DNA from: Fomitopsis serialis
Taxonomy: Eukaryota; Basidiomycota; Agaricomycetes; Polyporales; Fomitopsidaceae
Length of the DNA: 64,000 nt
Assembly: GCF_022376445.1 (NCBI RefSeq)
Contig: NW_025954998.1
Location: forward strand, 248,001 to 312,000
Direction of reading: 5' to 3'
The stretch's first letter is position 1, and the number at the start of each line of letters is the position of its first letter. The notes under the pieces were generated by a model. That model worked only from the letters and a program-made list of their open reading frames with translations, made no database searches and was not told the DNA's origin. Position numbers and translations under genes: made by a program. Shown here one piece after another: positions 13,271-50,063 of the stretch.

Positions 13271-13816
13271 ACATCGTTCATGATTGATGTAGCCGACAGT
13301 GCTGTATCGTTCATGAACGATGTAGCCGACAGTGCTGTATCGCTCATAAACGATGAAGCCGGCAGTTGTAGGATGCATCGTTTACGAACGATGTAACACT
13401 GTCGCATACATCTGCAGCTATGCAGATGTATGCGACAGTGTTACATCGTTTGTGAACGATGCATCCTACAACTGTCGGATGCATCGTTCATTAACGATAC
13501 AGCACCGCCGGCTACAATCGCTGCAGATGTATGCGACAGGTCGGATGCATCGTTCATGAACGATACAGCACCGCCGGCTACAATCGCTGCAGATGTATGC
13601 GACAGGTCGGATGCATCGTTCATGAACGATACAGCACCGCCGGCTACAATCGCTGCAGATGTATGCGACAGGTCGGATGCATCGTTCATGATCGATGCCT
13701 CCGACAGCACTGCAGTTGTATACGACAGTGTTACGTCGTTCGTGAACGATTTATCCTACAGTGCTACATCGTTCATGGACGATAAAGCCGATAGTGCTGT
13801 ATCTTTCATGAACGAT
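13271..13816. repeat. 33/66-bp minisatellite built on a 16-bp palindrome
   Basis: Palindromic cores occur at 13271, 13306, 13339, 13377, 13445, 13483, 13549, 13615, 13681, 13735, 13768 and 13801. Spacing is 33 bp in the outer parts and 66 bp for the four units from 13483 to 13681, whose 66-bp unit is nearly identical. The best cores read ATCGTTCATGAACGAT, a perfect 16-bp palindrome. Because 33 and 66 are multiples of three, both strands stay open; the repetitive peptide is probably not a gene. Confidence 0.85.
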
Positions 13817-13937
13817 TCATCCGCAAGTACTGCGTCGTGGTAACCATGTAATAGGGTTAGGGTCCACACAGGGAAAATGGTTGTCTTGAATTCCCTCCCA
13901 CAATGGGACTTGTCGCAGTGTGTCTGAGGTGGACCAC

Positions 13938-13953
13938 ATCGTTCGCAATCGAT
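13938..13953. repeat. Dispersed 16-bp palindrome site
   Basis: ATCGTTCGCAATCGAT, in the non-coding stretch between the minisatellite and the first small paralogue gene (about 630 bp upstream of its start). Confidence 0.6.
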
Positions 13954-14578
13954 GCGCCCATTAACATTAGAGTGTCAATAGCTACCATGATTCACCTCAG
14001 CTACCAATCGACAGAAACAGTTGAGATATCCAGTCCCATCTCTATTACCGTAGCTTGTGTCGTGACGTCTGACAGTAGTTATTACAGAAACCCATGATGG
14101 AGTCGGTTGAGGCTTGCTGAACGCTTGTCATTCGTAAAGACATACCCTCGTCGCAGCATCCATTCAGTCAAGATGTACTGTTCTGGTGAACCCACTGCCA
14201 GGTTCCGCATTCAATGGCGTCAACTTGTAAGATCATGCATAGAAACAAACTCCAGTAGTCGTTTTTAAGGCTTCAGGAAAGGCACGTCGGTTGTATCAAA
14301 CTCTATGTCTTTTTTGTCGCTGATGTATAGGCCATCGGACGCACCTTGTGATTCTCTCAAAATGATGGCCGGTGTGTCAGCGACCTTGCGTCATCATCCA
14401 CCCATCGGTATGCCGACACAATCACAGGAATCAATTGGAGATCACTGGATGCGAGCCTCGAGGTGCAGCAGGATCTGTCGGACCAACGTCCGGTTTCCCC
14501 CGTCGTTGACTTTTAACGACAGTGTGATTGCAACCAGGTCCATATCACTTCACCCCCCACTCTCTCCGAGCTGCTGCC
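13954..14578. other. Non-coding stretch upstream of the small paralogue pair
   Basis: No supported gene. A pyrimidine-rich tract (CACCCCCCACTCTCTCC) lies just before the start codon at 14579, as in many fungal promoters. Confidence 0.35.
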
Positions 14579-15440
14579 ATGGTTGGACCTTGCACTGTCG
14601 ACTTTGTTCTGGGCATCATGTCCTTACTGGCACCCCCAGGCAATCTATCTCCCCGTCCCCGTCATGAGATCGTGACGGGCAGCCGACTGTTCACCGATCT
14701 CCCTCCAGATCCAGAGGCGTGGGATGCCGACACTCTGCAACGCCTCGAAAACACGCTATGGGCACTCTTCGATAGTCCCTTGAACGTGCCAGCCTTTGAG
14801 CTGTTCGTTCGCTGCCAAATCCTCGTAAGTCGGGACCTCCGACGATTGTGTCTATCGCAAGACTAAACCATCCGACACACAGACACCCCGATGGATGCGG
14901 TCGCTCATGCGTTCGGGACAGCAAAAGAACTTTCCGGTCCTTCTGCTTGCTATGTTTCAGTGGATCACCTACGACCCGGCGGCCATTCCCTGCGACACTC
15001 ACGATATCACAACATTCTTGATGTCGCACAAGGGATTAAAGCCAGAGGTTATCGACCTGAAAGCCAACCCTCAAGTATATATGCGAGGCCTCGTCAATAT
15101 CACTCTCCGTTGGATGTGTACGGTGTCCTCTGCATACCTGCGGTGTTGTACTGACATGTATGTTGGCTTTCAGTGAACTCCCGCTTGGCGTGTACGTATC
15201 TACGTGTGAATGTCCGTCCCACTTTGCTAATGCGACAATAGCTTTGCCTCGCCTGGGCCGGGTTAAAGACTTGTACACGAGCTTAGGTTCACTTGCTCAC
15301 ATCCGACGTTTTATAGAGGACATTGAGACTGGTATGTGCCCAGATTGTTTTCGAGGTATTCATAACACCTTCAAAACTTATGCTTCCTAGATGACGAGGA
15401 GGATAGCGAAACAGATAGTAGCGACGAGATTATGGGCTGA
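14579..15440 (+). CDS. Unknown small protein, paralogue 1 of a tandem pair (212 aa)
   Basis: Five exons: 14579-14824, 14883-15117, 15174-15191, 15242-15331 and 15391-15440, total 639 nt including TGA, all with GT-AG introns of 50-59 bp. The 18-nt third exon is unusually small but is supported by an identical arrangement in the next gene. I do not recognise the family. Visible: PPDPEAWDADTLQRLENTLW (a helical Asp/Trp-rich motif), a conserved PRWMRSLMRS block at the start of exon 2, LLAMFQWITYDP, MSHKGLKPEVI, and an acidic tail (DDEEDSETDSSDE). Soluble, no signal peptide or membrane segment. The start at the first ATG agrees with that of the paralogue. Lies in the palindrome-bearing island. Confidence 0.72.
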
Positions 15441-15925
15441 GCGACAATGTCTGTGACTGGTAGCCATGTATCCCCGCCGAAATGTGGTATTTACGTATTT
15501 GAGCAGCAGGAAGGTTTGTGCGCTTGTCAACGTTGGATCTGTCCGACTGTCGCCGCACTATCTGTCGGATTGGCATGTGTCGTTTAGAGAGTGTGTCGCC
15601 GTAATCGTTATACCTTCAGGAAATCTCAGTAGTTGCTCATAAATCGTGGATCTTCTAAGTCGTTGAAACATAGACAGGGGGGCCCACGGTCTGAAAGCCC
15701 CCGACGACGGCCGAGATGTCGGGGAGCTTGAGTAATCATTAACTAATCAGCATGCGGATACGATCATTCGTATCCAGGTTAAATCGGAGCACCCGAGGGT
15801 CGGGTCGGAGCCCGTTTCAAAGAACTGTCGGGACAAGATCCGATGGCCCCATCCATGTGTTTTAACGACGAAGAATTCCTGACGACGTCCACATTCATTC
15901 CCCCTACATTCTTCGTCCTGGTGTC
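15441..15925. other. Spacer between the two tandem paralogues
   Basis: No gene or palindrome site recognised; functions as the promoter region of the second copy. Confidence 0.35.
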
Positions 15926-16784
15926 ATGGTTGGCATTTGTGACATATCCCAGCTTCGCTACCTCATCTTTAACTTGACCCCCCGTGGACGCCAATCGCCC
16001 CGTTTCCGCAACGACGTCCTGTTAAGCGGCAGTCTGTTCACCGACCCCCCTCCAGCTCCAGAGGCGTGGGATGCGGACGCTCTTCAATGCCTCGAAAGCA
16101 CACTGTGGGCTGCTTTCAACAGTCCACTGGACTTCCTCAACTTCGAGTTGTTGGTCCGCTGCCACATCCTCGTAAGTCGGAGGTCCGACGATTCTGTCTA
16201 TCGCAAGACTGAACCGTCCGACACGCAGACACCCCGATGGATGCGGTCGCTCATGCGATCGGAACAGAAAGAAAGCTTCCCTGTCCTGCTGCTTGCCATG
16301 TTTCAGTGGATCACCTACGACCCCGCCATTCCCCGCGACACTCACGACATCATGGCATTCTTGATGTCGCACAAGGGACTCAAGCCAGAGGTCATCGCTC
16401 CGAACGCTGACCACGTCATATGCCGCCGGGCCGGTGCTGCCATTACTCTGCGCTGGATGTGTACGCTGCCTTAATTTCCATTCTCATGGCTTCGTACTAA
16501 CATCTGGCGGGATCTCAGTGAATTCACGCCTGGCATGTACGCACCTCCGTCCAAAATTTCGTGCTCACTTGCTAATTCCGTATCAGCATTACCTGACCCA
16601 GTCCAGCTTACAGACCTGTACATGCCCTCAGCCATGGAAACGATCGCTCAGATCCGACGTTACGTAGAGGACATGACGTTGGGTATGTCCACGGACAGTG
16701 TTCCTCATGATATCCTGAAGCTTACGATGTGTAGACGACGACGAGGACAGCGACATAAACAATGTCGGCGAGTTGATTGACTGA
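15926..16784 (+). CDS. Unknown small protein, paralogue 2 of a tandem pair (213 aa)
   Basis: Exons 15926-16171, 16229-16460, 16519-16536, 16587-16682 and 16735-16784 (642 nt). Intron positions and phases match paralogue 1 exactly, including the 18-nt exon; exon 2 is one codon shorter and exon 4 two codons longer. Shared blocks: PEAWDADAL..LE.TLWA, FELLVRCHIL, PRWMRSLMRS, LLAMFQWITYDP, LMSHKGLKPEVI, and an acidic C-terminus. This is a tandem duplication in which both copies kept their frame without any indel fix, unlike several larger genes nearby. Function unknown; the family is not recognised. Confidence 0.72.
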
Positions 16785-17859
16785 AAGAAATGGGTGGATG
16801 AGCTTGCAGTAGTAAACCTTCAAGTCTAAATACCTGGCGCGCTTCTGTCGATGTCGAATTCGCCCCACTTTCCATCTACAATCCGTTGTGTCGGTATGCA
16901 TCGTTCAAAGACGATACAGCAATTCATCACCATGTCGTTTCACATTCGTAGTACCACCCCGACATACCCTGGAGGATTCCGACACTGAGAGGGGCCACCA
17001 GGTGCCCTCCGTTGCCTTAGGCGACACTCCGACGTAGCGCAGCCGCCCGGTCTATCAATTCGACCGCAGATTTTGGGTTGAATCAAGTGACACGCTCTTC
17101 CTGAAGGCTCGGGTAACTTACCTGTCATGAAGGTAGACCATGTGATTTTGGAGTGGAACTGTGCCTGAGCACGCCATTTGGTGGTGACGCGTATCTGTCG
17201 GAGCGCTGTCCGGCGCGTATCAAGCCTGGATGGAACTAATCAGTGTCGCAAGGTCGGACAATGCGTCATGAGAGTCATTCTCATGTTGAATGGCCATTGT
17301 ATTCAGCTATGTCGCACAGAACATACATCGCACGACACGCAAACATGACACGTCGGAGTGGAATGAGGAACATCAGAATCATTTGATTGAGTGGATATTG
17401 TGTGTGACTTCTCCCGTCAAGACTTTCGATCGTGATCGATCGGGGATCTTTTGATTCAGTAAGCCTCTGATACGTGGATATATGACCGCCTCCACCCTCT
17501 GCAGTGAAAACGCACACCTTGGAAGATTGTGTGCTTGTATCAAAGTAGTGTGATTTATTTGCCAGGATCACATTGTTTTATCTACATAGCGAGGGCTTTT
17601 TAAGTACCGCACAAGCAGTGAGATCGCATTACAGATTCGTTTCGGATGTGACTGCTCCCGGTCAAGGGAATTTCTAGATCGCTTCTGCACCCGGCCAGTA
17701 GTCACATGCCTCAGCCCGGTTCTTGGTAACACTGCCTGCCTCCTGTGTGGCAGGCATGTCCGACAATCACTGGCGTCGTTCCTCTGTTGCACCACGACAC
17801 TATCTCTTGACGCCGAACTGCCCCCAGCCCCACTGCCCCCCTACTCGCTGCCCCTCACA
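16785..17859. other. Long non-coding stretch before the ParB-like gene
   Basis: About 1 kb without a supported gene; lower GC than its surroundings between roughly 17,260 and 17,600. It holds one palindrome site at 16,900 and is the upstream region of the ParB-like gene. Confidence 0.35.
16900..16915. repeat. Dispersed 16-bp palindrome site (degenerate)
   Basis: ATCGTTCAAAGACGAT; outer half-sites kept, one mismatch. Between paralogue 2 and the ParB-like gene. Confidence 0.5.
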
Positions 17860-20800
17860 ATGCCTTCTGCCCGTGGCAAAGCCAAAGACACCAGCGAGCG
17901 GTCGCGCACCAACAAGCGCGGCAAAAAAGCGCAGAATGCGACAGCGAAGGGAGCACGAAACGTCGCGGGTGGCACTGAGATTCCGCAGGACAGCCGCGCG
18001 CGAGACAAGGACATTAGCGAGGAGGAAAGCAAACTCTGGGACTCGATGACCGTTCGTAATTGCTGCTCTCCATCGATTCCATGTTTTCTGAGGGATATTA
18101 CCTAGACCGAGTGGGACGAAATCAGCCCGGCGAGGCGGCTCGAGTTGGATAGGAGGGCACGCGATGCGTTTCTGGGGACGATGAAGTTCGACATCATCGA
18201 GACGAAGACGGATGCTATCGTTCCCCGCTTCGGCATGTACAACGATCGGCCCCTCGACAGGGGAGCCATGTCCCGGCTGAAGGCGAACATCACGAACCGT
18301 CACGCTCATGGTTTCCAAACCGACTCTCACCTGATATTCGCCGTGGCCACGCGCGACCTCATTCGCGATCCAGCCCCTGTCGGGAGTGAGCTTCTCGGGT
18401 CGGACCTTCCGGAATTCGACCTCCAAGACAGCGTGGAGCCTCGGTCGGTACTCGCGCTTGCTGGACAACACCATATCGGACCGCAAACGAGCTGTACGCG
18501 AAATGGAGAAAGGAGCTCAGAGAGCGACGTGGAATGGCGACAGAGGATGACGATGGGTGTCCATAGCGGCATCAGAGGGAGCGAAGTCGTCGAGTGATGA
18601 TGTCGATCTAGACACCATGGATGATCTCGAACGTCGGATGGAGGAGGTACGATGGTGGGGTGTGCGATTGTACGACCTCAGTAAGCCCGCTATGTTAAGC
18701 TGTCCTCATGTCTTCTGACAAATGTCGCCACCGCTACAGAGAAGATTCAGTCGGATGAAGAGCTTGCGGATCATCTGTCGCGCAACGAGTCCAAGGTTCA
18801 ACACTCGGAGACGGAGGAAGAGTCGCTGGTCCAGAAGTTGAACCGAATCCGCAGCATCCTAGCAGACCTCGGAATGGCAGAGTTCATGAAGAAGCACCAG
18901 TCGCTCACCTTGTCGAAGCTGAAGCTGAATATCAACTCGTCGATGTCACGGATCATCATGAACGTCTACATGCTCCTCATGGTCCTCTCGATGACGCGAC
19001 ATGGGTCGCACTTTAGGGCTCAGCCGGAGTTCCGAGTGTCGTGGCTGAAGAACCTCAGCGATGCTCACGGGACGGTACGTATCTGACGCCTATACGAGAT
19101 CCGTGGCCTCATACAGATCTTCATGTCGCAGCTGCTTTCATGGATCTTCATACGACAGTCTGAACGCATGGCTTTGGTCGACTGCGTCTACACCGGGAGA
19201 TCTGAGCAGAGAGCCGACGCGACAGATGAGGCATCTCGCGCCGACAACCCCAGCAATGCCGAGAACGTCGGCGACATCGAGGTCGTTCGTGGCGACGCCT
19301 GGCCCTCTTTCCAGACAATGAGGAGTGCGTTGGGTACGTCCAAGTCGGTTGCCCCTTACCCCTACACTGCCGAGGAGCTGGCGATACTCGCTCGCAACTT
19401 TTCCCTGGGTGAACGACGATTCCAGGGCATATTCCACGACGACGCGATCATGGAAGCCCTCGACGATGCGTATGTAGACGCGTTCCGAGGTGTCGACAAC
19501 ATGTTTATGATGCTTGGAATCGACATGCCCGAGTATTGTTCCGCACTCGCCACCTACCGCATCGCCGTTGTGGCCCTCCTCCGCGAACACTTCCCCGTCG
19601 AGGACGCCGAGTTAACCAAGTCCTATCGAGTGCCCAAGGAGCAGCGCAGGCTTTCCATAGCGACTCGAAACTACGACCAGCTGCTCTCTCGGGTGCTCTA
19701 CAGTTTGTCGGAACGCGATGACGGCGGAAACTTGAAGCCCTTACCATTCCTCACGATCAGCGTCTTCCGGGACCTCCACAGGGCATTCAGCCAGACACCT
19801 TTGGCTTTCAAAGAGGTATGTCGCTCACCGGATATGTCACACCGACTCCCTCGCGGACTGCGGCATCGTTTGCGATCGATGTGTACCTCCCGACTATTAT
19901 CGGAAGCTTTGCTCGTATCGTTCGCGAACGATGCCGGCCCAGCGCCTCGCCGCTGTCTGGCCTGACTTTAATTCACGATGTGTTGTCCCGACGGAATGCT
20001 GATGCGCTGCCTGTGTCGCAGGTTGCTGGTTGGTTCGAGGGGCTCCATTGGTACTACCGCGGCTCGAACGCCGCAACGCAAGACTTCAACGACGCGACCA
20101 ATGCCATCTTCATTGCTGCGAACAGATGGAGGGCGGAAGAATTGAACGCAGCCCAGCATCATACTATCCTGGATAGGGTATGTCATCCACATCCATAACG
20201 CAGTATGACAATGTAAGCGCTCACGTCTTTGGTCTTTCTAGATTGCCGACGTATTCATATTGGGAAAGGCGCACCTCATGCCTGACCTCGAGCACAGCAT
20301 GTCGGACATCACCATCCATAGGCCGACAAACAAGCAGGCGCTCAAGGCGATCGTCGCGTCGGGGGCTGTGTATAAGAACAAACAGCTCATTCTGCCTAAA
20401 TCCGACTCTGTTGTCGTTAATCCGGCGGCGCTGAGGTTCTGGAACGGCATGGGTGGGCTGTACTCAATCACAACTCATCATAATGCGTTGCTACTCAAGG
20501 TCGGGGTTAAGCCCCTCCCGAGGAATGGGTATCCGACGGAGTATCCAGCCAATCCTTTGGGATACCGACTCATTCGCAGTGGCACCTCTAGAGACATCCT
20601 CCGAACGGCAACTAGCATGAAGGAAGTCAGGAGCTACGAGTGGCTGTACGCTGCGGCGGTTGTTGAGGATTCCATCATTCGCACCTATCGCACGAGCAAA
20701 GTCTTGGGCATCTTGCCCAGCAATCTACGGTTTCTCTTGCGAGAGGCGATGAATATCTACAGCCACGTCGGACAGCCTGACGACGACGACGATCCGTTTG

Positions 20801-21300
20801 CGACTATGGGGACCTATTTTGCGTTCTGGGACCAGCCCACGGAGCCTGACGACTTCGTAATGAATGAGGAGATCTGGCATAGCGTGACCATCGAGGACAT
20901 CGTGGAGAAAGTCGGATTGCTGCAGGTAGCGTCCAGCATGCAGCTGGAGCGAAAGCAGCTGTGCGACCTGGTTGCCACGCTCGAGGCCAGCCCCCTTGGA
21001 AAGTATCGTGTACCGGATACTGGGAACCCAAAGCGGACTGCACCGCTGTCGAGGGAGTGGTCGTTAGCTATGGATGCAATAGTACAGGTGCGCCACGACA
21101 CGTCCCCTCACAATGATATGATGACGACGTACTCTTCGTCGGTCGACAGGCAGCCATTCAGACATGCACCAGACGACGTCTCTGGAAGGAAGGAGAATCA
21201 GAGAGTTTGCCCTTCGACAGAACAACGGTAGATTACGAGATGCCATCGCTCGTGTCGGAGGTTCACACCCACAGAAAAAGCGTCGGGCCTATATTCAGAG
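17860..21300 (+). CDS. Long protein with ParB/sulfiredoxin-like N-terminal domain
   Basis: Start ATG at 17860 (Lys/Arg-rich N-terminus), exon 17860-18051, intron 18052-18105, then a region resembling the ParB/Srx fold: MYNDRPLDRGAMSRLKANI (an 'R-x-L' strand and helix) followed about 50 residues later by LALAGQHH, the usual G-x-H-R-type motif of this fold. The match is by motif only. Later exons: to 19074, 19117-19815, 20022-20177, 20242-21087 and about 21150-21300, in one frame at each junction; no other domain is recognised in these ~650 residues. No helix-turn-helix is evident. Two frame breaks: a duplicated AT near 18472 directly after GQHH, and one missing G near 18558. The intron 19816-20021 is 206 bp, about four times the local norm, and contains two palindrome sites. 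ParB-type proteins bind palindromes and NTPs in bacteria; here the role is unknown. Confidence 0.55.
19865..19880. repeat. 16-bp palindrome site in intron
   Basis: ATCGTTTGCGATCGAT within the 206-bp intron 19816-20021 of the ParB-like gene. Confidence 0.6.
19917..19932. repeat. 16-bp palindrome site in intron (perfect)
   Basis: ATCGTTCGCGAACGAT, a perfect palindrome, 52 bp after the preceding site in the same intron. Confidence 0.7.
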
Positions 21301-21361
21301 TAAGCCTTCCTCATTCTCGTGACGACCGTCTGGCTCATTTCAGGTGTAGCTTCATGGTGTG

Positions 21362-23089
21362 CTAGTGATCGATGACGAGGAGGAGAAAGCAAAGGCCAAA
21401 AAGAAGTCGGAGGCGTCAGGATCGACTAGCAAGAGAGAGGAGAAGTCCGCGACAAAGCCTACTGTCGCACCAGCGCAGGGATCCAAGTCGACGCTAAGCC
21501 CAGTGGCGACAACTCGAAGCCTGAGCCGATGAAGGGAAAGCGCAAGTCGGGGCCTCCCAAGTCGCGTGCCATCATCTTGGACAGTGACGAGGACGCTCCC
21601 TATGAACTGGATCCAGAGGTCGACGACACCTTCGACAACGCACTTGCGACGCAGACCTTCATACCCACTCCAGATGACGATGAAATCATGAGCATCCCAG
21701 ACAGTGAGCATGTTGAAGTACTAGAGGTGAGCGATTTCCCTCTACACTATTGGCAGCTCCACTGACGGACTGCATACCAGACACCGGCGAATGCGCCACA
21801 GGCACCCCGTCATGTCGAGACCCGTCCGACAAAGCCACAGCCCCAGGCCGATCTCCCAGTGACGCCTCCACGACGTGAGAACACGTCGGCAGGTGAGTAC
21901 CATTCCGCTGAGTGCTCATGGGCTTCACGTTACGTGTATCGTTTGCGAACGATGTGTCACCTTTCATACATTTTGTGCGATCCGATTCTCCGACATTACT
22001 TACACTGCGCACGATGCCTCTGGTGGCGCTTTCTGCCCATTACTGACTCCGTTGTTACTACAGCGGGACCTCGAGACAAGTCTTCCGGATTTCAGCCACG
22101 TAAGATGACGGGTTCATCGGGAACGTTTACGGTGTTGGAGCCAGGCAAGCCAGGTGCTCATTATTATTGCTGGTCTCATCCTTTGGATTTGGTGCGATCG
22201 GAGAATGTGGCGTGCATGAACGTACGCGTTGCAGGACTCTACGACTTTGATGCGCCGTCTACTGAGGAGCCTCCCAGTGCGGCTGCCATTGCACGGGTGC
22301 TACAGAGCGTGAAGGCGAGGATAATTCCTGTTGAGGGACACCGCCGTGAGCGAGTCCGTCGTACCATGGAATTGCGCATAAGGCTCACGCTTTCTGCTGT
22401 ATAATCTCCGCGACAGAAACTAAGCTGATGCCTGACCGTCTGTTTGCAGCTCGAAGGCTGCGGAGCCAGAGACGATCGATCTAGACGCTACGACCGACGA
22501 TGAGCCACCGCGGCCAGTGGAAAGAAAGGTCGTGAAGAACATGAAGCCCAAGGCTGACCTCTCTGCTAATGCCGATGCGAAGCCCTCTGCAGGAGGAGGC
22601 AAGAAGGCCCGCGACAGAGTACCTCCTCCAGCGCTGCGTCCGCCACCGCGACTCAGGCGTCGACATCATCGACCGGTCTGTTTTCACGTGATGACGCCGT
22701 TTAGCCCGGATAGCTTACACCCTTCAGTAGTTCCCGCCAAACGTCAATCCAATGCGGCGGATGCAGACGGTCGGGCCGAGAAGAAGGCCAAGGTGGCGGC
22801 CCCAGCGCCCCCAGGAAGTCGGCCGACACATCGAAGGCGAAGAACGCTGGTTCGGCTTCCAAGAAACCGAGCGCGAAGAAAACACAGGTATGTGGTCGCT
22901 TCCATCCATGCCGCCTTCGAAGCTAACCGAGATCAAGGCAAAAGTCTTCAGGATGATTCGGAGGACGAGGATGAATACGGTGCCAAGAAGTTCAATCCCA
23001 TCGTCAAGGGCGCGACGAAGCCGTCTGGAAGCCGTCCGCGTCCATCAGAGACAAGTGGGCAGAACCTCAAGATGGTTTCAGATGCATAA
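21362..23089 (+). CDS. Lys/Asp-rich C-terminal part of the ParB-like gene, or a separate gene
   Basis: Coding-like exons continue on the same strand: a charged exon from about 21367 (DDEEEKAKAKKKSE), one frame change near 21485, then KGKRKSGPPKSRAIILDSDED, an exon about 21780-21893, a long intron about 21894-22072 holding a palindrome, and an exon about 22073-22400 that looks folded (FTVLEPGKPGAHYYCW, then VRSENVACMNVRVAG). After about 22450 it is Lys/Pro/Arg-rich to a stop at 23087-23089. The basic, disordered composition suggests a nucleic-acid-binding tail. Whether it belongs to the ParB-like gene cannot be settled by eye; no clear start codon or promoter separates them. Confidence 0.4.
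21938..21953. repeat. 16-bp palindrome site in intron
   Basis: ATCGTTTGCGAACGAT in the ~180-bp intron starting at 21894. Confidence 0.65.
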
Positions 23090-23358
23090 AGTGCGATGGT
23101 GGGAGTAGCACCGGTCGGATCATGTTAGGCCCTGCGTAAATACATTCGTTCATGCAATCTCAATACCTGCCGGCGACGGCACCAGGTCCAGAGCGTCTCG
23201 GAAGTCATTGGGATGAAATGATGAGAGTATTTCTGGATGATTGGAGCAAGGCACTATCAGAAGAGCATATGCAGGCCGATGGTTCTACGATCCGTCGCGA
23301 CGCGACAAGAAGATTTCCATCACTCCGACGTCGGATTTGTCGGACCATGTCGCGATAT

Positions 23359-23392
23359 AACCTAACCTGTACCGTTAGCGTACAGTTAGGTT
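23359..23392. repeat. Short inverted repeat upstream of the second giant gene
   Basis: Arms AACCTAACCTGTAC and GTACAGTTAGGTT around a 7-bp loop, about 140 bp before the putative start at 23531; could be a promoter element or a small hairpin. Confidence 0.5.
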
Positions 23393-23530
23393 CCCCCCTC
23401 TCTCTTCCAGACCATCTCCTTCTCCTCTTGTTGCCGTTCAGCCGTCGGGGACATCATGTTTGAAGACGATCCCGTTGGTCTACACGACGAGCAAGTCATC
23501 CCTTACTTTTGATGTCTCGGCGGTGTACTT

Positions 23531-39231: not shown

Positions 39232-39610
39232 CCGTGGGCTTTCAAGGCGAAAACTGCCTACATTCCACGCTCCCAAGTTGTCCGTGCTCTTGTCGCGTCA
39301 TTCACTCATCTTACGTGTATCCTCACAGCGAATGCTCATTCCATTCGCCAATGTCGATAATGTACGATGAGTAATACAGGTGAGATAAAACATGGGTCGA
39401 CAACTTCGACAACAGACGAGGTTTGCATAAATCGAGCGCACCACCTATGAACTTTCCCCGCAACCGATCATATCCCTGGCTTACGCTCCTTCGCCGCACA
39501 CGCATCCATCATCCACCATGCACGTCGCGACATGAAAGAACGGGTGCCGACATCGACGTAGACTGCGAGCGGGGCGTGTGCGATGGACCGAGGTCCGGTG
39601 GAGTGCACAG

Positions 39611-41212
39611 TCAGCGGTGCACGCTCGGCGATCCGGGCTGACTGCGATCACTTGCCAACTCCTCCGCCTCGTCCAACGTTGCGATGTACGCGCGCAAACC
39701 CTCGGCCTGATACTCCAGGACCTGCATCCGTGCATTGATGTGTCGGAGTTCATCATACGCAGCTTGGTACAACCTGGTGCCTTGGTATACGTCCATCCGG
39801 GTGCCGTTCGAATGCCTGACTTCAGCGGAGGAAGCTACCATTGCGATCGCCGTAGCGCATCTGGCCATGACACCTCCGGCTTGGGGATGCTGACTCGCCC
39901 TCGTCCTTCTTCGTCCCCCGGGATATCTTGCAAGACGTCGTCGTTTTGGACAGTATGTCGACCGCCGCCCACGGCCGCTGTCTCGGAACGGCTGCGACGA
40001 GGGCGTTTGGTGCGGTCAGACGGCTGTGGGCTCTCGCGGCCTTCCGCGTCTTCTCCAGTATCTTGTGGGGCTTCCACCGCCGTGTCACCCTTCTCCTCTT
40101 CAGGACGGCCAGCTGTCTCCTCCTCGCCCGTTTCGACTCCCGGAGCCAAGGTCACGGAGGGTCCATCCGTCGACGTCGCCGTGTGCTCGACCTCCGCGGG
40201 TCCCCCATGCGTGACGCCTGCATTGGGAGCCGCTTGCACCCCGTTCTCCTCATCAACCGTCGGTTTAGACGGCCCCAGCACTTCGACACGCTGTCGCTTC
40301 GCGTGGCCTGGATTGTGTGAGCCTGCATCGTAAAGTACTGATTAGTCGCACACACCGTCAGATGTAACATATCGCCGCTCTCCCGTGTTCCACGAACATG
40401 CCAGTTGGTTTCGAGGCACCGTGCACACTCCGACGCCCCCGCCTCTACAGTGCACTGCGCTCCACTGGGCAGCTCCATGCAGTTGTCGCACAGCTGTAGT
40501 CCAACGTCAGCGCGTGTGATAAGAGAGTGAGAACGTCGTCGCGTACCTGCTCGGATGCTGCGCGGAGCCTTCCCCAATCTCGCCCTCCTCCATGTCCGTA
40601 GCCTTTCGCTTTCCACTCGCTTCCCTCCTCATTGGCTCTGAATCTGCGTTGGCAGAAGGGGCTACCTGTTTGACTATTTTCACCTTCCTCCCCGGTGGTC
40701 CCGGTGGTCCGAACTTCACGACTGCTCCGTCGAGGGCCACGATCGGTGCGACCTTCTGCTGGTGTGTTGCAGCCTCGGGCCGTGGCGCGCGACGCTTCAT
40801 TTCAGACAGCTGGCGTCAGGTCGCAGTGCAAAGAACAGGAGACGTAACGTACCGCTCCTCTCGGTGGGTCGGTCGCGGTATAGATCACACTGTCAGTAGG
40901 GAATGATGGTCCCAACCATGCTTTCAAGTCTACGGGGCCCGCTCGTGAACCTTCTCATAGCGTCCTTCACTGCGGTCGCCAGCTCCTCAGCATGCGGCTC
41001 CGTGGGGTGGTTCCCTCGATGGGCGAGGTACAGATCCTATTTGGTCATCATTTCAGGCCATACGTCGCGGCCAGTAGGTTCGTCACACTCACCTGAAGCT
41101 GCTTGTACCCCACTATCCAACGGACCAACTCATCTCCTCCCTCCGGCACAGGATTGATCCGCAGATAGCGCATCACCTTCTCCACGGGGCTTAGAATACC
41201 AAGGTGCGACAT
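39611..41212 (-). CDS. Array paralogue F: cysteine-cluster and coiled-coil protein
   Basis: Start MSHLGILSPVEK at 41212; RINPVPEGGDELVRWIVGYK resembles the N-termini of G, H and I. Next exon: helix EELATAVKDAMRRF. A Lys/Pro-rich exon ends with SGKRKATDMEEGE, close to unit I (SGKRKATDLDHD). Cysteine module about 40400-40490: CDNC and CARC; the sixth Cys position reads Trp-His (NWHVRG), so the cluster may be incomplete. A Glu/Pro-rich linker carries RTKRPRRSRSE, and a C-terminal coiled coil (AAYDELRHINARMQVLE) ends at 39611. Confidence 0.58.
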
Positions 41213-41533
41213 GTCGAGATTGACGGGGAAGGATGAGAATGCAGGTCGCCCGAACGCGCGACTGCGACTGCTCGGGTATGAAGTGTGGCTTCGGCCTTGC
41301 CGTTTTTGGAGAACAATGCCACGTTTAGCGCCCGATCGGCTGATTAGCCGCTCGTCGTTCCTCGTTCTGTGGCGCACGAGGGAGTCGCATATGCAGGCAA
41401 AACTAAGTACGGAGCGAGATGTCGCGCGACCTTTCGTGTGAGCCACGCCACTCTGCAGAACTCATGACTGTATTTAAAGGCGGACGTCCCTAGGTACCTG
41501 CAGACATGCACTCCACATCGTGACGGTTGGTAC

Positions 41534-42808
41534 CTACTGTTTGCAATCTACCGGGTCTTCCAGCTCCGCCATAATGAAGCGGACTGCCGTTGCCCGTCTT
41601 TCCAATGTCGCGATTTCCCTAAGGGTTGCGTCGAGGGCCGTCATCGCGCATCGACGGGCCATTTCGATTCTTCGGGATCGTCGGGAATGGCCTCTAGGTA
41701 TACTACAGGGACCTGACGGAATGGCCGTGGGCTCGAGACGCGTTCGAGGCCACCCACTTGTGAATGGATCTCGTCCGGCTTCGTAGCGGTGTCGGAGCTG
41801 TGCGACACGGTGTCGCCCGCGCTCCCTAACGTGAGGTCTTGGGTGTTCCCTCGTTGGCAGCGCGCAGCACCTGGAAGCTTGGAGGGGACCCTCACCTGGC
41901 CATGCGCAATTGTCTCAGCCTAATTACAGCACGGTGAACGGTATTCTCACCATCATAGCTTTCTGCCGACATTGAGAAACCCTCCCACGTACACGGACAC
42001 TCGTCGTAGCGACACTTCTCGCACGTAGTACTGCCTTCCGCGAGATGGCAATGCATTATGGCCCCCATTTCCCCAAGCATCGATCACACTTGGCGGACTG
42101 GTGAGTCTGTCGCGCTAGCGTTCATGAAGCCGCTAGACTGCTTACCTTTCCTCTACGCTCGTATACTTCGTATGCGCGACTCACCATCTCGTCCACGTTC
42201 ACTTCTTCGTTTGTCTTCGTCGCCTGCATCGTCGCCTCATCGTCGCCTGCACGTCGCCTGCATCGTCGCCCATATGGCTTTCCATGTCGCGCCCCTTTCC
42301 CTTGGTGTCAGGTCGCCCTTTCTTGCTCCCGTGTGACCGCGTGCGTCTCTGGCGACCGCTGCGCGCCGGCCAGCGCGTCCGCCCCGCTGGGTGGGTGCCA
42401 TGCCTTCCACACTCGCTGGTGACCCGCGATTATTGGCAGGCCTATCGATAACCAACGCCAGGGCAAACTCCTTCTCCTGACGTTTAACAGCCTCGGAGAG
42501 CTCTGGAAAATGTTCGAGCACCCAGTCCCTGAGCTCGCCGGTAATCCTGTCCGCGACATCGTCCGTGGCCTTTCGTACCATCTGCCATATTGCCTCGTCG
42601 CGTGGCTGGGCCATCGTCCTCTGTTTGTATAGCACCTTGGTATCCTTTCGGTTATACGAAGTGGTGAAGAACATTCGTTGTACATGCTTACTAGGACGTC
42701 GTTGAACTTGTCGACCCATTGCGGCAATTGGGAGTCGTCGTCGGGCACTGACTTGGCCAAGAAACTGGTGACCCTCTTTGCAGGGTTATTGGACGACGGC
42801 TGGTGCAT
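41534..42808 (-). CDS. Array paralogue G: variant Zn2Cys6-like cluster, one-base frame break
   Basis: Start MHQPSSNNPAK at 42808. LPQWVDKFNDVLVSMY parallels F and H; LRDWVLEHFPELSEAV is this copy's version of the WPEL helix. Cysteine module 41991-42088: CDRC, then CEKCRYDECPCTWEG, fitting C-x2-C-x9-C-x8-C-x2-C-x6-C only if one base is missing in the GGGG run near 42070. The C-terminal helix (TLREIATLERRATAVRFIM) is a short coiled coil ending at TAG 41534-41536. Confidence 0.55.
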
Positions 42809-43907
42809 GATGATGATGGCAAAGCGAGACGGCAGCACCGAGCATTCATGCGCGTGGTCGACGTCACGTATCAGTGCCAGATATGATCTCCTGCGTGTGT
42901 GTGAAGCACGTGGGTTCGGCGATCGCGAGGGTTTGATCTCCGACCTGCCGGAGCGCCCGAGTATCAGCCCCTCCGCTATTACGCGCATGCAGCGTATCTG
43001 TTTCCGCTACAATCCTTGGTCCATCTAGCGTACACGGCACATCAATCGTAGTGGATGAACTGACGGAATTCGTGTTACCATTTGTGAGGTTCATATCGGT
43101 ATGCAAGCCACACACACGACGTCCATAGTGTTTGAAGTCGCACAGACGTGTTCACTCCGAGGTATGAGACTGTCGCGCCATCGCTATTTTCAGCAGTGAT
43201 AGTGCGAACTGCTTCGTACTTTAATGGCCTGCGTGGCATCAGTAGCTTGCCAGGTATATACTGGTCTGCCCACGCTCGCACTCAGACTGCAGACGTGTCG
43301 CGGCATTCGATCGCTGCCACAAGTACACACACCGGAAGCATCTGGGCCTTGTTCCCGTCCGCCTCAAACCGCTAGGTCTATACTGAGATTTGCGGTTGAC
43401 GCATGTTCAGAGGTCACCATACTGAGTCGCTGACGTGCGACACACGTCCCGCCAGCTATCGCCGTCCTTGCATCGTAATTTAACGTATCGACCTCGTCCG
43501 CCTTGATGCGATACGCCCCAACGGTGTATACCGGCTTAGGGCATTCGCCTCCTGTGCACCCAACACATTCAAAGATTCAGACATCCGGATGCCTATCAGA
43601 CTGGCCTTCCTGCGCGTCCTGGTAATTGATGTCCGGGTGACATGCAATCGCAGCATCAGAGCCATACACACCCTTCTCAGATCGTCGCTGGGCATCTGCT
43701 GCGCCTATTTGCCGTTGCGGTTCCTCTATATTGTCATATAATAATCGCCACGCCTTGAACAGCAGCACCCCAGCAGGGAGATATACACTGGATGCTTCGA
43801 ACGATACTTTTTGATACACATTGTCGAGCATTTTCGGCACCGGTGATCCCAATTCTAGCCCGTTATTCACTGATATTGTCGACATCCCTACTACCCTTCT
43901 TCCTATC
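42809..43907. other. Gap between units H and G
   Basis: About 1.1 kb. A minus-strand open frame at 43577-43930 has no recognisable motif and no family resemblance; I do not call it a gene. Confidence 0.35.
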
Positions 43908-45181
43908 CTAAATAGTTGCCGTACCGTCAACGTCCTCCATATCCTGGATAAGCATTTCCAATGAACGACGCTGATGCATCAATACAGCCATACGCGCGTC
44001 CAGGTGCAGGATCTCCTCTTTGGCAGCATAGTACGCGAACGTCTCCTCCCGTTCTTCCGGAGACGGTGCCTCTTGCTTCGACGTGTTCATTGTCTGCGAT
44101 ACGTCCCCACTGTGAGATTTAGCAAGCGCACGCTGTGGCGTCGAGGCCTCTCTGTCGCGGGGATCGGCGCCCCTAGATGCGACAAATGTCTCCGCCATGC
44201 TGACACCGACTTTGTGCGACGCGAAAGGGTGTTCATTCTCCTTTCGAGGTTTCTTCCCCGTGACCCTTTGGTCCGCTGAATGTCGGACGTTGAGAGACTG
44301 GATACATGTCGCTCCGTTTCCGACAATGTACGCACCTTCGCGCATAATGTCGCGCGGGCTCACGCGGTCCCACATGCAGTTCAACCTCTGGTCCAGACAG
44401 CTCTGGCAGGCTGTCGACCCCGGAGCGACATGACAACCGGCTTTTGTGGGCCGTGCCTTGCAATTGTCGCACTAAGAATGTTGGCTGTCGGCACAGCGGG
44501 GTGAACGGATCGCGATAGTCGACATACCTGATGGTAGGTATCCCCGCCGTCCTCCAGGCTATCATCGAACCCCACCTCCGATGCAGTGCGTTTGCCCGCC
44601 ACACGTTCCGTGCTTCGCCCGGGGAGCGCTACGTGGTTTGAATGTATCCTCTCTCTGACCGTTTCCCCGCTTGGGACAGAGTCGGCCTGCGCAGAAGGCC
44701 CTCCCTCGACGCCTTGTTCTGCTGTGATGTCGTGATCGACTGGCTTTGCGTCTCGCATCTCTTTCTCCGCATTTCTCTACGGTACGGTTACCTTCCTTCA
44801 AAAGTGTCACTGACATTGTGTAGGAGTAACGCACCTGCGCCCTGCGCTTCTCAATTGGGTGGGACATCCAGGGATACGTCGCGACCCGCCAAGTGTGGTA
44901 CTGCGGCGTTCCTTTGGCGTCCATCTCGTCCCATATGTGGTTCAGTGCCGCGGCTTGTCTAGCCTTGTCTTCCACACTGGTATTTGGCCCGCGACTCCGG
45001 GTGTACTCATTCTGGTAGCACTCGGCGGTGAGCTCAGGTAAGGCCGTATCCATCCACTCACTGATGCTCCGTTGAACTTCACTGTCCACTGCAGCAGATC
45101 CTCGCCCTTCGCTGGCATCTTCATGCGCTGCATCCACGCGATATACTTGTCAAGAGCAGATCCACTGGCAGTCGACGACAT
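43908..45181 (-). CDS. Array paralogue H: variant Zn2Cys6-like cluster and coiled coil
   Basis: Start MSSTASGSALDKYIAWM at 45181, with GEDLLQWTVKFNGAS as in G. Second exon: SISEWMDTALPELTAE, then ALNHIWDEMDAKGTPQYHTW, matched in unit J. Cysteine module 44376-44471: CDNC, CQSCLDQRLNCMW, spacing C-x2-C-x8-C-x8-C-x2-C-x6-C with the Trp two residues after the last Cys seen in G-J. The C-terminal exon ends in AAKEEILHLDARMAVLMHQ, a coiled coil closely related to F and J. Confidence 0.65.
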
Positions 45182-45752
45182 GGTGAGCAAGGGGAATGAG
45201 GTCGTGTGGACAGCGGGAGACTTGGTGGGCGGTCTGAGTCAAAATCGCAACCTGGCCGAGAGTCGCAATCCGTCTATTTGAATGCCCGACATCCGAGATG
45301 TGCACCCTAATCTCGTGCCGACCCGGGTGCAATTTGGCACAGCACATGCCAGGAGTATGTTGCGATCACCAAACTCGTATTTATCTAGATTGCGCACTGA
45401 CGTAGTACGTGATGCGTTCTGCCCTCGTGTCTTACCAGGCAATGTATTCTGTTTTCCTATCGCACGGGCTACCATTACACACCTGTCATGAAGGTGTTCT
45501 GGTCGTTGTGCGTCACTTAAAGCTTAGCTTAATACGCACCGCGCTACCGTCGTGGTGTATGAATTCACCCTCGGGCATCTCTCTCGCGGGCTGTCGTTGT
45601 GCTTTATATTGTCGACAGCTGCCCTCGAATATGTGTACGCAGTCACAGGCATGTTTGGCCACCCAGCGTTGGCGTATCGTTTCCTTCCGTGGATAGACGC
45701 TAAGATGCATAGAGGATGTGTGAAATGCTCCTTGACTAAATCCTCTAACCTC

Positions 45753-46973
45753 TCAGATGTCGGAAGCCCCCGGACGCTGAGCCAATTCGTTAACCAACCC
45801 TACCAAATACTCTTTCCGACGCGCGAGGCCCGCCAGACGTTCCTCTACACCTCTCAGCTCCTCCTCGCACACACGGTGTAAAGCCCTCTGCGGCACGTTA
45901 TGCAGACCAATTACCTCTGGCCTTGAGTCCCCGGAGCTCCCGATATGTCTGGTTGGTGCGTTTTGCATCTCTGTCGTTCGTGGAGCATCACCTCCAACGG
46001 GCGTGGCCAACGGTTCCAAAGTCCCCGTTCTCGAGGAGCTGATGTAAGGGGCCTGGCTGAGTACTCGTTTCTTCGTAGGCCGCAGCGCCCCTGTAGCACC
46101 CACTTCAGGACATCGGCTCAAGCCCCTCGTTGACCTTCGAGAAACAGTTACTCACATTCGCACCGAACGTCGTCCAGCGTCACGCCGCTCCACATACAGC
46201 ACGATGCGCTGTCCATGCACGGTTGGCATGATGATGATCCAGTGGCGACGTCGCATTCGCCATCTGTCTTCCCGGCCGTGCAGTTGTCACACTGGTTGGC
46301 CCACGTTATGAGGGCGTATGCGCGTGGTGCAAGTGCTAAACGTACCTCAGTGAAATCGTGGTCAAGGTCCGTCGCCTTCCGCTTGCCGCTGGTAGATTCA
46401 GTCGAATGAGGCTGATTTACTTTCGACGTCATGGATCTTGCGTTGTCAGCGTTTTCCAACATCATCACACTGGGACCCCTTCTTGGACGGCTTCGCCGTT
46501 CGTTTTCGTCTGTGCCAACCCCTCAGGACTTTGGCCGCTCGGTATCCCCTTCCCTGCGTCTTGCATCGTCTGTCGCAAAACTGTTATTCATGTTTGCTCC
46601 CTACCACACTCAGTCAAATCATACCCTAGCTTTCCATCGCTCAAACAGTTTCGCCGCGGCTGGGTATGTCGCCCTAAGCCAGGCGAAGAATTCCGGGCTT
46701 CCTCTTTCTGCAAAAGGCCGCATGATTTTGTCGTCGAAAGCGATTTTCACCCTCGCATTCTCGAGTCTTCGTTCCTCTCTTGAGCATCCCTTGCCATACA
46801 CGTCCTAATCTTGGTTAGATCTGAGCGCGGCTGTTCTGTGTTGTGCGACCCACCGTGGCCCACATCCATGTCTTCGTCCATATCTTCATATTCCTGTCCC
46901 CTGTGGGTACCGGGTTTCGCTCAAAGAAACCGAGGTATATGTCGGTCTTGGATCGCGGTTCCACACTCGACAT
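45753..46973 (-). CDS. Array paralogue I: variant Zn2Cys6-like cluster and coiled coil
   Basis: Start MSSVEPRSKTDIYL at 46973; ERNPVPTGD matches RINPVPEGG of unit F. Helical exon FFAWLRATYPAAAKLF. Then SGKRKATDLDHD (shared with F) and the cysteine module 46196-46291: CDNC, CQPCMDSASCCMW, spacing C-x2-C-x8-C-x8-C-x2-C-x6-C. C-terminal exon (46121-45753) ends in a coiled coil RVCEEELRGVEERLAGLARR. Confidence 0.65.
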
Positions 46974-47438
46974 GTCAGAGAAAAGCGGCGAGTGCGCCGG
47001 GCGGCGTGGTGTATGCGCAAAAGATCATAACAGCCACAGCTGGCCTCTTTGTTTAGTGGTTTCCATATAGGGTCGTTACCATAGGCGCCCGATGGCCTCG
47101 GACGGGGCATACAGTACCACCTGCCGCATTCGTGTCGCGTTGAGAACGGATCGTCGCGACATCTCCCCGTGGTCGAGCATGATTACGCGTCGAATCGGGA
47201 CTGTCCGCGCTGTGTCGACAACATCCCGAGGGAATACAGTAGTAAGGGAGAATACTCGCGCGACACCGATTGTCTAGGAACGATCTCACACGTCCTCATC
47301 AGGTCAACGGTACCCACCTCAAGGGAGAGTGGATATGCCTTGAAGCGTGTCAGCCCGTTTGGGCATGTCATGATTCATGGAATGTGACATAGCTATATGA
47401 CACCAGTCAAACGTCGGATATGTCCTCTAATGTGTCCT

Positions 47439-48505
47439 CTAATGGCCATCCATCATCAGTACCTGCAGTGATTTGCGCCGATGAGCGAGTACTTCCAGCT
47501 CGGCCTGAAGCCGGAGGATCTGGTCCCGTGCTGCATAGTACAATTCGGATGACCCCCTCCTGTCGGGAGTTGGGGAATGTCGGCGTGGAGTGGCGTTGCC
47601 GTTCCACATTCCTACTGGGTCTGTACGTCGCTCGCAAATCCTAAGGCTACCGTGCTTGACCGCCGCATCTTGGGCGAGATGTGTCGCGGCTAGCGTTGAT
47701 TTCTTCTCAGGTATCATGGGAGATGTTTCGACATTCTCGCCCTCCGTGTGACTTGTCTTCGACATGTCGGTTGTCGGAGCGGTTGAATTGTGAACTGTTA
47801 ACGCACTGAGTAACTTGCTGTACACGGGTATTACCTCATTTGAAGTCGTTCCGCTGGCCCAACCGCGACCACATACACATCAGGTTGTGGTCAATGCACC
47901 GCTGGCAAACGGAGGACTCCATGGCGACATGGCACCCGATCTCCGTCGGGAACTCTTGGCAATAGTCGCACTGTACAAATCCGACGTTAAGCCATTACAA
48001 CGATGGCGTTTAGTGCCCCATCCATACCTGATCCCAGCCCGACCCCGGATGGTGCTCCCTACTGTGGGAACTTGCACCCAAGGCTGGTGCTCTTCCTGAC
48101 TCGTTCTCCGTGCTTTTGGCGGTGGGGGGTGTGTCAGAGAAGGAGCCTGACTTTCCTATCGCGTTTGCGACGGCATCGGAGTCCACCTCCGCCGCCACTA
48201 CCTTCGCGATGCACCCGACAGGTGAGCTATTGTCTGAAGTTATGATTGATGCGGCCAAATTGACTGCAGATTGTTTGTGCCATTGTACTTCGCGTTGGCC
48301 CCCCCAGTAAAAATGTAGGAAGCGGACGAACCTCGTTCATTCGTCTCTCAAGGTTCTCGGTGATCCATTCGTATTCTCGATCCCGCCAAACGGCATACTC
48401 GAGCGTCGCTTTAGCATGAAGGGTGTCCCAGACGTAGTTCAATGCTGTAAGCAATCGTAGGCTGTCTCCGCCCTGTGTGGTGCCGTCGCGCGACTGCATG
48501 TACAC
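47439..48505 (-). CDS. Array paralogue J: variant Zn2Cys6-like cluster and coiled coil, N-terminus unclear
   Basis: The first recognisable exon (from about 48505) has ALNYVWDTLHAKATLEYAVW, the counterpart of unit H. A linker exon follows, then the cysteine module 47875-47970: CDYC and CQRCIDHNLMCMW with C-x2-C-x8-C-x8-C-x2-C-x6-C. The C-terminal exon contains ELYYAARDQILRLQAELEVL and ends near 47439. The first family exon (helix with the conserved Trp) was not found upstream, so this copy may be 5'-truncated. Confidence 0.58.
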
Positions 48506-50063
48506 GTGCTGTGCGTCGTCAACTGTCGAGTCGCGTCCGAATGACTTTCATGGCCTTACAGAGACGTCATGGAACTCGCGCGTCCATTATTTCAGCTTCT
48601 CCGTCTCATGGGGAATAGCGTGACTCTGTATCCAGGAGATTTAATCATTGAGGGGCGTGCTGGACAAGCCTGAGGACATCTAGAGGGTAGCGCGACGATG
48701 TGTGTGCCACACAAGGGCTCGATTGTCATCCGTAGGCCACTACCACTCTTAAGTAAGCAGTATTGCGAATTGACTCTGATATCTAATCGAGATATGACAG
48801 GAAAGATAACCGAGTTGCCGATAACGTTACGGCACGATCCAATAGCTCTGGTCAGCAAACGTCGGCGTGGCGATAGGTCAATGTGAAGCACGTCGGCCAT
48901 TACGTGCTGCTTTGCATAAGTCCTTACGAACCACACTATCAGAGGACTATCGGTGAAGCAGCCTATCGGTGGCAGCCCCCGCTTGCACCCCGCCCCCTCG
49001 AGTGACAATCATTCATTAACTGCGGCGATGAGGTGGGAGGGATTATATCCGGCGATGGAGATATCTGTGATGGATAGATGTGGCCGTAAAGGCCCATGTG
49101 GCGATTAACTTGGCCATTAATATGCGTTAGCCATGGAACATATCGGAATGTTGCTACAGTGGTGGGTATCATACACCATTCGATCGACCGACCCACGCAC
49201 CTGTAGCGGTACGACAGGTGGGTATCGTGTGCCGACATTCACGGATGGGGTTGCATCGATCGCGATCGATGCAGGCATTATCAGCCTTGGTGTGGAGATT
49301 CATACGTTTCCCGCTCGTTACATGATTCCTCCAGCCCCGCAGTCCAACCGCTAGTGTCGCGCCTTGCCAAGGTCGAATCTCAACGCTATTGTCCCATCGA
49401 AGTGCTGTCATGTACCTGCGTCACGCGCTACAAAGGGTTTGTACTGGTCGCAATGATGCTCCTTACCGTCCCGACGCCTACGTCTGTGTCGCGACATACT
49501 TCGAGAGTTAGGTTTGTCGCGACAGCACATATGGTTCCATTATATTGTTATAGTCCCCCGCCAACCTACACACCATTCTTGTAAAATGTATCATAAGCTA
49601 TTAGGCTGCCTACCATGTACAACCGTATCTCCCTCATACTACATAAGTGACGCTAGTTCATACGTCCGGTAACGTTGCTGTCCCCCCCGGCCTCTCGGTC
49701 TCGATGATAACTCTGTGGAATCTTTAGTACTGCATGTCAGCGACGCACCGTGGAAGTATATCCATTACCAGACCACCGCCTGGCACGGCTATCGAGCTCG
49801 CGATTGTCGGGATCCGACCGTGTCGACCACCTATAATGAAGTGAATGCCGTTAGTAAGAAATGTACCCAGGCAGACAAAGTCGCCCCCTTGCGGTATATC
49901 TTCTTGCAATGCATCTGGTGGATGATACCACACGTCTCTGTGGCCAAAACACGTCACTGATTCCGTCGGCCGCACGACACATGCGACACTACCCCACCTG
50001 CGACATCCCGGAATCTCATTTAGAAGTACACAACAGTTGATCCGATCGTACGTATGTGACAGA
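48506..50063. other. Non-coding stretch right of the array
   Basis: About 1.5 kb with no supported gene; holds the rightmost palindrome site (49255). Above it begins the R1/R2 gene pair. Confidence 0.4.
49255..49270. repeat. 16-bp palindrome site (perfect, rightmost)
   Basis: ATCGATCGCGATCGAT, a perfect palindrome and the last member of the family seen in the window. Confidence 0.6.

Follow-up and report, generated by a model that had tools for sequence, protein, structure and literature searches.

What is a recurring DNA palindrome for, and which protein would read it? A 64-kb stretch of the genome of Fomitopsis serialis, a member of Polyporales whose genus comprises brown-rot fungi (PMC9019680), raises this question. 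The stretch (NW_025954998.1, positions 248,001 to 312,000; C312:248001-312000 in our contig numbering; hereafter the window) belongs to an assembly of 66.2 Mb in 806 contigs. A sequence-only reading had seen in it a family of palindromes with the core ATCGTT-N4-AACGAT, confined to one 36-kb "island" and seemingly under selection. Judging from comparison of the contigs, the island is apparently the inside of a large multi-copy mobile element of F. serialis, which we call A: a repeat whose left end is fixed and breaks into sequences that exist uninterrupted at other places, and in which the motif is both confined and conserved.

All 14 dispersed palindromes reported by that reading were recovered at their positions, 11 of them exact and three (at 16900, 24586 and 39216) with one mismatch each, and the dozen or so copies it had noticed in a minisatellite correspond to 12 positions between 13273 and 13801, with 0-1 mismatch each. 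The window holds 18 exact matches to ATCGWTNNNNAWCGAT, compared with a mean of 0.02 and a maximum of 1 in 100 dinucleotide shuffles. When a weight matrix was trained on the 14 dispersed sites, these sites scored 19.8-35.4, and the highest score elsewhere in the window, the array aside, was 10.3; the place with this score was also the peak of a 47.9-kb background composed of L001, L005, L006 and window positions 1-12900 and 59001-64000. Five sites on C63, a cousin of A that had no part in the training set, scored 23.4-34.8. No site with 0-1 mismatch lies outside 12971-55271. The clustering thus held up, but the carrier of the motif is wider than 36 kb and runs from 12971 to ~55271. Similarly, the 16-bp core was borne out, but the conserved unit is longer, at about 20 bp (GY-ATCGWT-YRYR-AWCGAT-RC). 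The flanks of the sites, described as unrelated to each other, are so in most cases but not at 16900, which lies within 33 bp that are 88% identical to an array unit. A second flank likeness to the array (35 bp, 83%) was found at 33256-33290, and at the other dispersed sites the likeness spans at most 30 bp, mostly the palindrome alone. The number of array palindromes (0-1 mismatch) differs among the five copies compared: 12 on C312, 22 on C2, 11 on C50, 9 on C56 and 27 on C251.

Genome-wide, the loose pattern gave 103 forward matches, versus 7 for its reversed control. The strict form, ATCGWTYRCRAWCGAT, occurs at 35 distinct places and its control at none, with about 0.5 chance matches expected by a rough estimate. 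Rather than being spread uniformly over the genome, 33 of these 35 places fall on C2, C50, C56, C63, C176, C251 and C312, all of which carry a copy or a cousin of A. At the other two, on C472 (L028:1475) and C805 (L029:1444), the surrounding sequence is the same: a perfect palindrome, ATCGTTCGCGAACGAT, precedes an ATG by 44 bp in an apparent host promoter; it could be a chance occurrence or a host site. A variant with C in the half-site was found at 29 distinct places, of which element contigs account for 25 and other contigs for 4, with 4 forward and 4 reverse matches for the reversed control.

The left end of A was placed at the identical base in copies on C2, C50, C56 and C251 by comparison of the contigs. 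A genome-wide search with 31 bases of this end, allowing 3 mismatches, located it at seven places (six exact, one with 2 mismatches), and a related left end stands at two further places, on C115 and C24. The flanks of all nine left ends differ from one another. Six of the nine were searched for elsewhere in the genome; four (C312, C2, C56 and C247) have uninterrupted copies, and for C251 and C50 no copy reaching the junction was found. Where A begins (ATTATATAG), 11 of the 12 uninterrupted copies inspected for these four sites read AT; the exception, one of three copies for the C56 site, is 75% identical and reads AC. By reading of its protein sequence, the interrupted sequence on C312 and C56 is a gypsy-type element. 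In the window, this retroelement (5708-12970, with zinc knuckle, protease, reverse transcriptase and RNase H) is severed at 12970 by the left end of A, and 368 bases of its continuation were not found to the right of A.

The right end is placed at ~55271, the point at which A ceases to match C63 and C279 and gives way to a different repeat; C63 is 92.7% alike over the last 1.4 kb of A, and the sequence that follows ~55271 also stands behind other neighbours on C192 and C50. None of the seven left ends has an inverted partner on the same contig, and no motif array was found at the right end. A-like right ends on C63 (L021:9270-9420) and C279 (L023:4050-4190) pass into AGCTCCC/AGCTTTT repeats of varying length, which resemble the 3' tails of some retroelements. 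The copies diverge in their right parts, C2 departing from the window copy at 22355. Some short copies keep the left end and match only the first 1.7 kb of A (C50:88018-89676, L008), and on C247 (L025) and C176 (L026) the match beyond the left end extends over only ~0.6-0.8 kb. The window copy and that on C251 differ by ~2-9% elsewhere, yet at ~24100-27800 they share several kb without one substitution and with few indels, reflecting either recent gene conversion or an effect of the assembly.

Several observations agree with the suggestion that the palindrome itself is selected. The large plus-strand gene of A carries a palindrome doublet in a 206-bp intron. Its cousin on C115, encoding the 1314-amino-acid protein P0013, is 46% identical in protein sequence over 88% of the query, and its matching intron (163 bp) keeps one palindrome, ATCGATGTTGAACGAT, which fits the loose pattern though not the YRYR centre. 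Most other exon gaps of the gene are shorter, and one longer gap on C115 (~0.57 kb) is without a site. Upstream of the genes for a family of cysteine-cluster proteins on the minus strand of A, presence or absence of a site agrees in five of six best-match pairs between the window and C63, the pairing having been judged by hand from similarity and order. The distances from cysteine-cluster exon to upstream site in the window and C63 are 978 and 982 bp in one pair and 623 and 956 bp in another; three pairs have no site on either side, and one has a site (at 1070 bp) in C63 only. The C63 gene at 18.3 kb (local position) resembles two window genes, both with a site, and the gene at 29.6 kb is similar to three, with a site 1285 bp upstream of one of these. 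Where divergence is higher, 1 of 64 site bases had changed, compared with 82 of 768 flanking bases (p 0.015), and over 13 sites the changes were 2 of 208 versus 95 of 2496 (p 0.031), these p values being somewhat generous because the flank windows of neighbouring sites overlap. Finally, C115 has a minisatellite of its own beside its related left end, with an 84-bp unit built around the same palindrome in a half-site variant (ATCGTC); C24 shows the same spacing, and among the BLAST matches listed the likeness between the C115 minisatellite and the array of A comprises the palindrome and its short surroundings. The shared intron, the upstream agreement, the slower change and the cousin minisatellite support the earlier claim, and the palindrome looks to be selected.

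We tentatively favour the explanation that the palindromes are docking sites of a dimeric DNA-binding protein encoded by the element, most likely from its array of Zn2Cys6-like proteins; we infer both the binding and the binder from sequence. Such a dimer would recognise ATCGWT-N4-AWCGAT with one subunit on each half-site. The palindrome array, 0.3-0.85 kb from the left end, would concentrate the protein for end pairing or control of transposition, and the single sites, ~2.4 kb apart in the left half, would enable this protein to mark the element's body or regulate it, while also acting at some promoters of the binder's own gene family. More generally, we infer a role for the sites in transposition or silencing. 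Among candidate binders we rank the Zn2Cys6-like family first, the likeliest binder being at least one coiled-coil protein from the minus-strand array, and the ParB-like protein of the large gene second.

Matches to one cysteine-cluster protein number at least 11, on C312, C63 and C115, a lower bound because the query missed known paralogues. Twelve peptides share six cysteines (CX2CX8-9CX8-9CX2CX6C), which is no independent evidence because they were picked with a six-cysteine pattern. The Pfam family matching most of them was Zn_clus (five of the 12, best E 0.024, cut-off not given). Among PDB chains with E up to 10, seven of ten were Zn2Cys6 proteins (Lac9, AlcR, Put3 twice, Gal4 twice and CBF3 subunit B, which we take to belong to this class), the best at 0.53. 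By reading, the array proteins also have a C-terminal coiled coil.

Several points weigh against this explanation. The likeness to Zn2Cys6 proteins is weak: among PDB chains the peptides match a disintegrin best (E 0.28), and other Pfam families match one or two peptides. Five of the nine array genes in the window have no upstream site, and neither do three cysteine-cluster genes on C115 within the 1.19-1.33 kb upstream that were read. Sites in introns of the large plus-strand gene would not be ordinary promoter sites. The motif does not vary, although paralogues whose cysteine clusters differ should also differ in specificity. In addition, C63 keeps its five sites with no match to the large gene, and a role in end pairing is unsupported at the right end because no motif array stands there. 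A reading of the sites as promoter elements only was rejected as a complete account, because of the sites in the large-gene introns and the three C115 array genes without upstream sites.

It is possible, though doubtful, that the binder is instead the product of the large gene (17.9-22.3 kb), the palindromes being parS-like sites: a ParB-like protein would load onto the array and the dispersed sites and would coat, condense or chemically mark the element for partition, silencing or protection. P0013 had 27 matches genome-wide, all on C2, C24, C115, C251 and C312, and all five contigs carry palindromes; moreover, the sites stand in the same intron of the large gene itself in two cousins. P0013 also contains the short motif GQHRHRMA, which we take to resemble a ParB box or sulfiredoxin. 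The spacing of the sites would suit this reading as well. Between 13938 and 35621, with doublets counted once, the intervals are 2.0-3.0 kb (about 2.4 kb, coefficient of variation 0.15), a striking regularity that only 1 of 200,000 random placements equalled, for a subset picked after seeing the data. The last gaps measure 3.6 and 10 kb. When all 12 spaced positions are taken together, the coefficient of variation is not below chance (p = 0.17), so that even spacing was rejected as a general law, although the minimum interval over the same positions is unusual (p = 8.5e-5). A precedent is offered by giant algal transposons, whose ParB-like proteins have been proposed to bind their own transposon (PMC12477816).

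Profile searches did not bear out the ParB-like label of the sequence-only reading. P0013 had no Pfam match up to E 5 and no match among PDB sequences, a search of the elements with the ParB_N family returned nothing, and PHROGs yielded only unnamed families (E 3.5 and 0.43). A viral origin was considered and rejected, as no relatives of P0013 were found in viral contigs, in a scan that reaches close relatives only. C63, with five sites and no match to the large gene, also argues against this protein as the reader. The gene itself shows a disrupted frame in the window copy relative to C2, and its stretch 20242-21228 differs from C251 by 11 synonymous changes and 1 non-synonymous change, indicating that it was under selection. 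A protein search with the exon at 20260-21228 found nothing and one with the spliced model found two proteins, both of F. serialis; these searches required shared exact words and similar length, making absence from other fungi weak evidence.

We regard it as unlikely that the carrier is not a transposon at all but a chromosome-end repeat, with A and its right-hand neighbour, a second repeat termed B, added or exchanged at chromosome ends with the same inner edge, and with the palindromes as subtelomeric protein sites. This would account for the junction of A with B, which carries a RecQ-like helicase of subtelomeric type (PMC7473861), for the copies on C2, C50, C56, C251, C312 and C24 that run toward a contig end, for the severed gypsy element that is not resumed over the 368 bases sought to the right of A, and for a B-like satellite upstream of an A left end on C176. 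However, contigs would break inside long repeats anyway, and the 66.2-Mb assembly contains no (TTAGGG)4 within one mismatch, so no contig end can be placed at a telomere; telomeres are either missing from the assembly or of another sequence. In addition, the repeat into which the C247 left end cuts is present without interruption on three other contigs, AT is common to the left ends and their targets as in insertions, and the left end of B also interrupts a copia-type reading frame on C50.

Less likely again is a host protein as the reader of the sites, such as a regulator or an element-recognising silencing factor. The palindrome in the apparent promoter on C472 and C805 speaks for it, and sites placed in introns and promoters would be in keeping with a general regulator. 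Yet more host sites would then be expected; only one host sequence has the strict motif, which is near the rough chance estimate, and the four places of the variant motif outside element contigs are about at control level. We give still less weight to a transposon-borne eukaryotic equivalent of ParB-parS, in which the spaced palindromes would mark the element over its entire length and nucleate its ParB-like or zinc-cluster protein to build a self-made chromatin domain for transposition, segregation or escape from silencing. Least probable, and already disfavoured, is that the palindromes are functionless minisatellite leftovers spread by local copying within the element: the minisatellite-like flanks at 16900 and arrays of 9 to 27 palindromes in five copies would fit, but diverged cousins keep sites in a shared intron and ahead of matching genes, and the sites change less than their flanks and, apart from 16900 and 33256-33290, barely resemble the array beyond the palindrome.

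The features of the window are collected in Table 1. The genes of this fungus have introns; in A, at 21893-22063, for instance, matches to the protein P0012 stop at 21894 and restart at 22054, with GT/AG borders. The plus-strand coding region that follows the large gene had no Pfam match (plus frames to 27972; open reading frames 23812-24522, 24965-26122, 26083-26745 and 27885-28403).

Table 1. Features of the 64-kb window, with positions counted from its first base.
Feature	Positions	Strand	Basis
Element A, large, 42.3 kb	12971..55271		shared left end, homology limits
Left terminus of A; first bases AT common to target site	12971..13001	+	genome-wide search
Palindrome array, 33/66-bp minisatellite with 12 palindromes	13260..13823		sequence, motif count
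Dispersed palindrome	13938..13953		weight matrix, exact match
Two related small coding stretches of unknown function near left end; homologue on C115	14528..16784	+	
Dispersed palindrome, 1 mismatch, minisatellite-like flanks	16900..16915		
Large gene related to P0013 (1314 aa)	17860..22347	+	tblastn of P0013 and P0012
206-bp intron of large gene with palindrome doublet	19816..20021	+	
Dispersed palindrome, first of doublet, intron of large plus-strand gene	19865..19880		
Dispersed palindrome, second of doublet, same intron	19917..19932		
Dispersed palindrome, in 171-bp intron (21893-22063) of large plus-strand gene	21938..21953		
Coding region of unknown function	23531..28686	+	
Dispersed palindrome, 1 mismatch, flanked by two predicted coding stretches (24525 and 24600)	24586..24601		
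Dispersed palindrome; terminal exon in a crude gene model, in our opinion between exons	26837..26852		
Dispersed palindrome, outside predicted exons	28862..28877		
Dispersed palindrome, upstream of apparent remnant of minus-strand array gene	30842..30857		
About nine paralogous genes, six-cysteine cluster	31419..48600	-	seven intact by pattern in window
Dispersed palindrome, doublet, 0.92 kb upstream of cysteine-cluster exon	33274..33289		
Dispersed palindrome, second of 33274 doublet	33345..33360		
Dispersed palindrome, 978 bp upstream of cysteine-cluster exon (982 bp in cousin C63)	35621..35636		
Dispersed palindrome, 1 mismatch here; fits ATCGWTN4AWCGAT in copy C251	39216..39231		
Dispersed palindrome, last before right end	49255..49270		
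Two related coding stretches of unknown function near right end; homologue on C115	50023..51783	-	
Second repeat B, separate from A: 173-bp satellite followed by relatives of RecQ-like helicase genes of subtelomeric type	55272..64000	+	

B has a fixed left end (CCTATAACTAG) and contains, besides its 173-bp satellite, a stretch that weakly resembles OrsD and a RecQ-like helicase such as occurs at fungal chromosome ends. It follows A on C312, interrupts the copia-type reading frame on C50 (L009, L010) and, on C192 (L022), lies 3.5 kb after a sequence that on C2 ends the A-carrying contig. A protein search with the helicase found 11 proteins, one of them a relative from Rhodofomes roseus.

Eight of nine planned frame-stretches of A, with X at stops, were scanned against Pfam: all three plus frames of 12971-27972, all three minus frames of 28000-41640 and two of the three minus frames of 41630-55271. 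The third minus frame of 41630-55271, the plus strand right of 27972 and the minus strand left of 28000 were covered by some single open reading frames rather than by whole-frame scans, and introns could hide weak domains in such scans. No Pfam transposase, recombinase, reverse transcriptase, integrase or helicase was found in the scanned frames, nor any transposase or reverse transcriptase of the KDZ, CACTA, LTR, LINE or Penelope kinds; apart from SlyX (E 0.034) and DUF7518 (E 0.94), nothing matched. The same library recognised the neighbouring gypsy element at 5.7-11.6 kb.

Among known systems, Helitrons have ends with 5' TC and 3' CTRR and insert between A and T. The AT target of A fits, but A starts TTATATAG and ends ...CCCCAGTCC (right end as placed), unlike Helitron ends; no Helitron Rep/helicase was found in its scanned frames. 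The captain of Starships is a tyrosine recombinase (DUF3435) encoded by the first gene; no such Pfam match was seen in the scanned frames of A up to E 1. Starships, defined around this recombinase and known from Pezizomycotina (PMC12134995), otherwise resemble A in spanning tens of kb with several genes, in a fixed left end and a short target shared with that end, and in that no terminal inverted repeat was found; they differ in that the scanned frames of A hold no recombinase domain. Large units near contig ends recall Terminons and telomere-linked helicase repeats, and the neighbour B has a helicase, but the scanned frames of A have neither reverse transcriptase nor helicase, and the assembly lacks telomere repeats.

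As for the motif, CACTA/En-Spm (TnpA motifs) and Ac/Ds elements carry subterminal transposase-binding repeats beside their ends. A similarly masses many copies of a short motif beside one end, but this motif is a long palindromic one that also recurs across 36 kb, introns included, and has no array at the opposite end. Coiled-coil Zn2Cys6 dimers, such as Gal4 and Put3, bind palindromes of fixed spacing; the array proteins of A share the six-cysteine cluster, the coiled coil (by reading) and a candidate site of this kind, but have a longer first loop (CX2CX8-9C, versus what we take to be CX2CX6C in Zn2Cys6) and, unlike Gal4 and Put3, comprise about nine paralogues in one element with weak profile matches. 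Bacterial ParB-parS also combines a 16-bp palindrome at several sites with a GQHR-type motif, but the site sequence is different, ParB_N did not find P0013, and the scanned frames of A contain no ParA domain.

Comparable in concept are the giant transposons of Ectocarpus (Sola1-1) and of red and green algae, whose accessory proteins are ParB-like and carry a DNA methyltransferase domain (PMC12477816). Here, too, a large, apparently mobile element has a large gene with a ParB-like feature, and in the algae binding to the element's own DNA has been proposed; P0013, unlike the algal proteins, showed no Pfam match. The available part of the same source describes no cognate DNA site for the algal system, whereas in A a candidate site can be seen. 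Among the titles and abstract openings listed, no published description of the element or the motif was found, which is a weak negative. In our judgement, the new aspect of this variant is a palindrome dispersed over tens of kb, and kept in an intron and upstream of cousin genes, within a giant element without a recognised transposase.

Taken together, A appears to be a large mobile unit in a polypore genome, and no transposase is recognisable in its scanned frames. With a candidate site whose places, consensus and conserved copies are in hand, and with two candidate proteins encoded by the same element, the idea that such an element may mark itself becomes directly testable.

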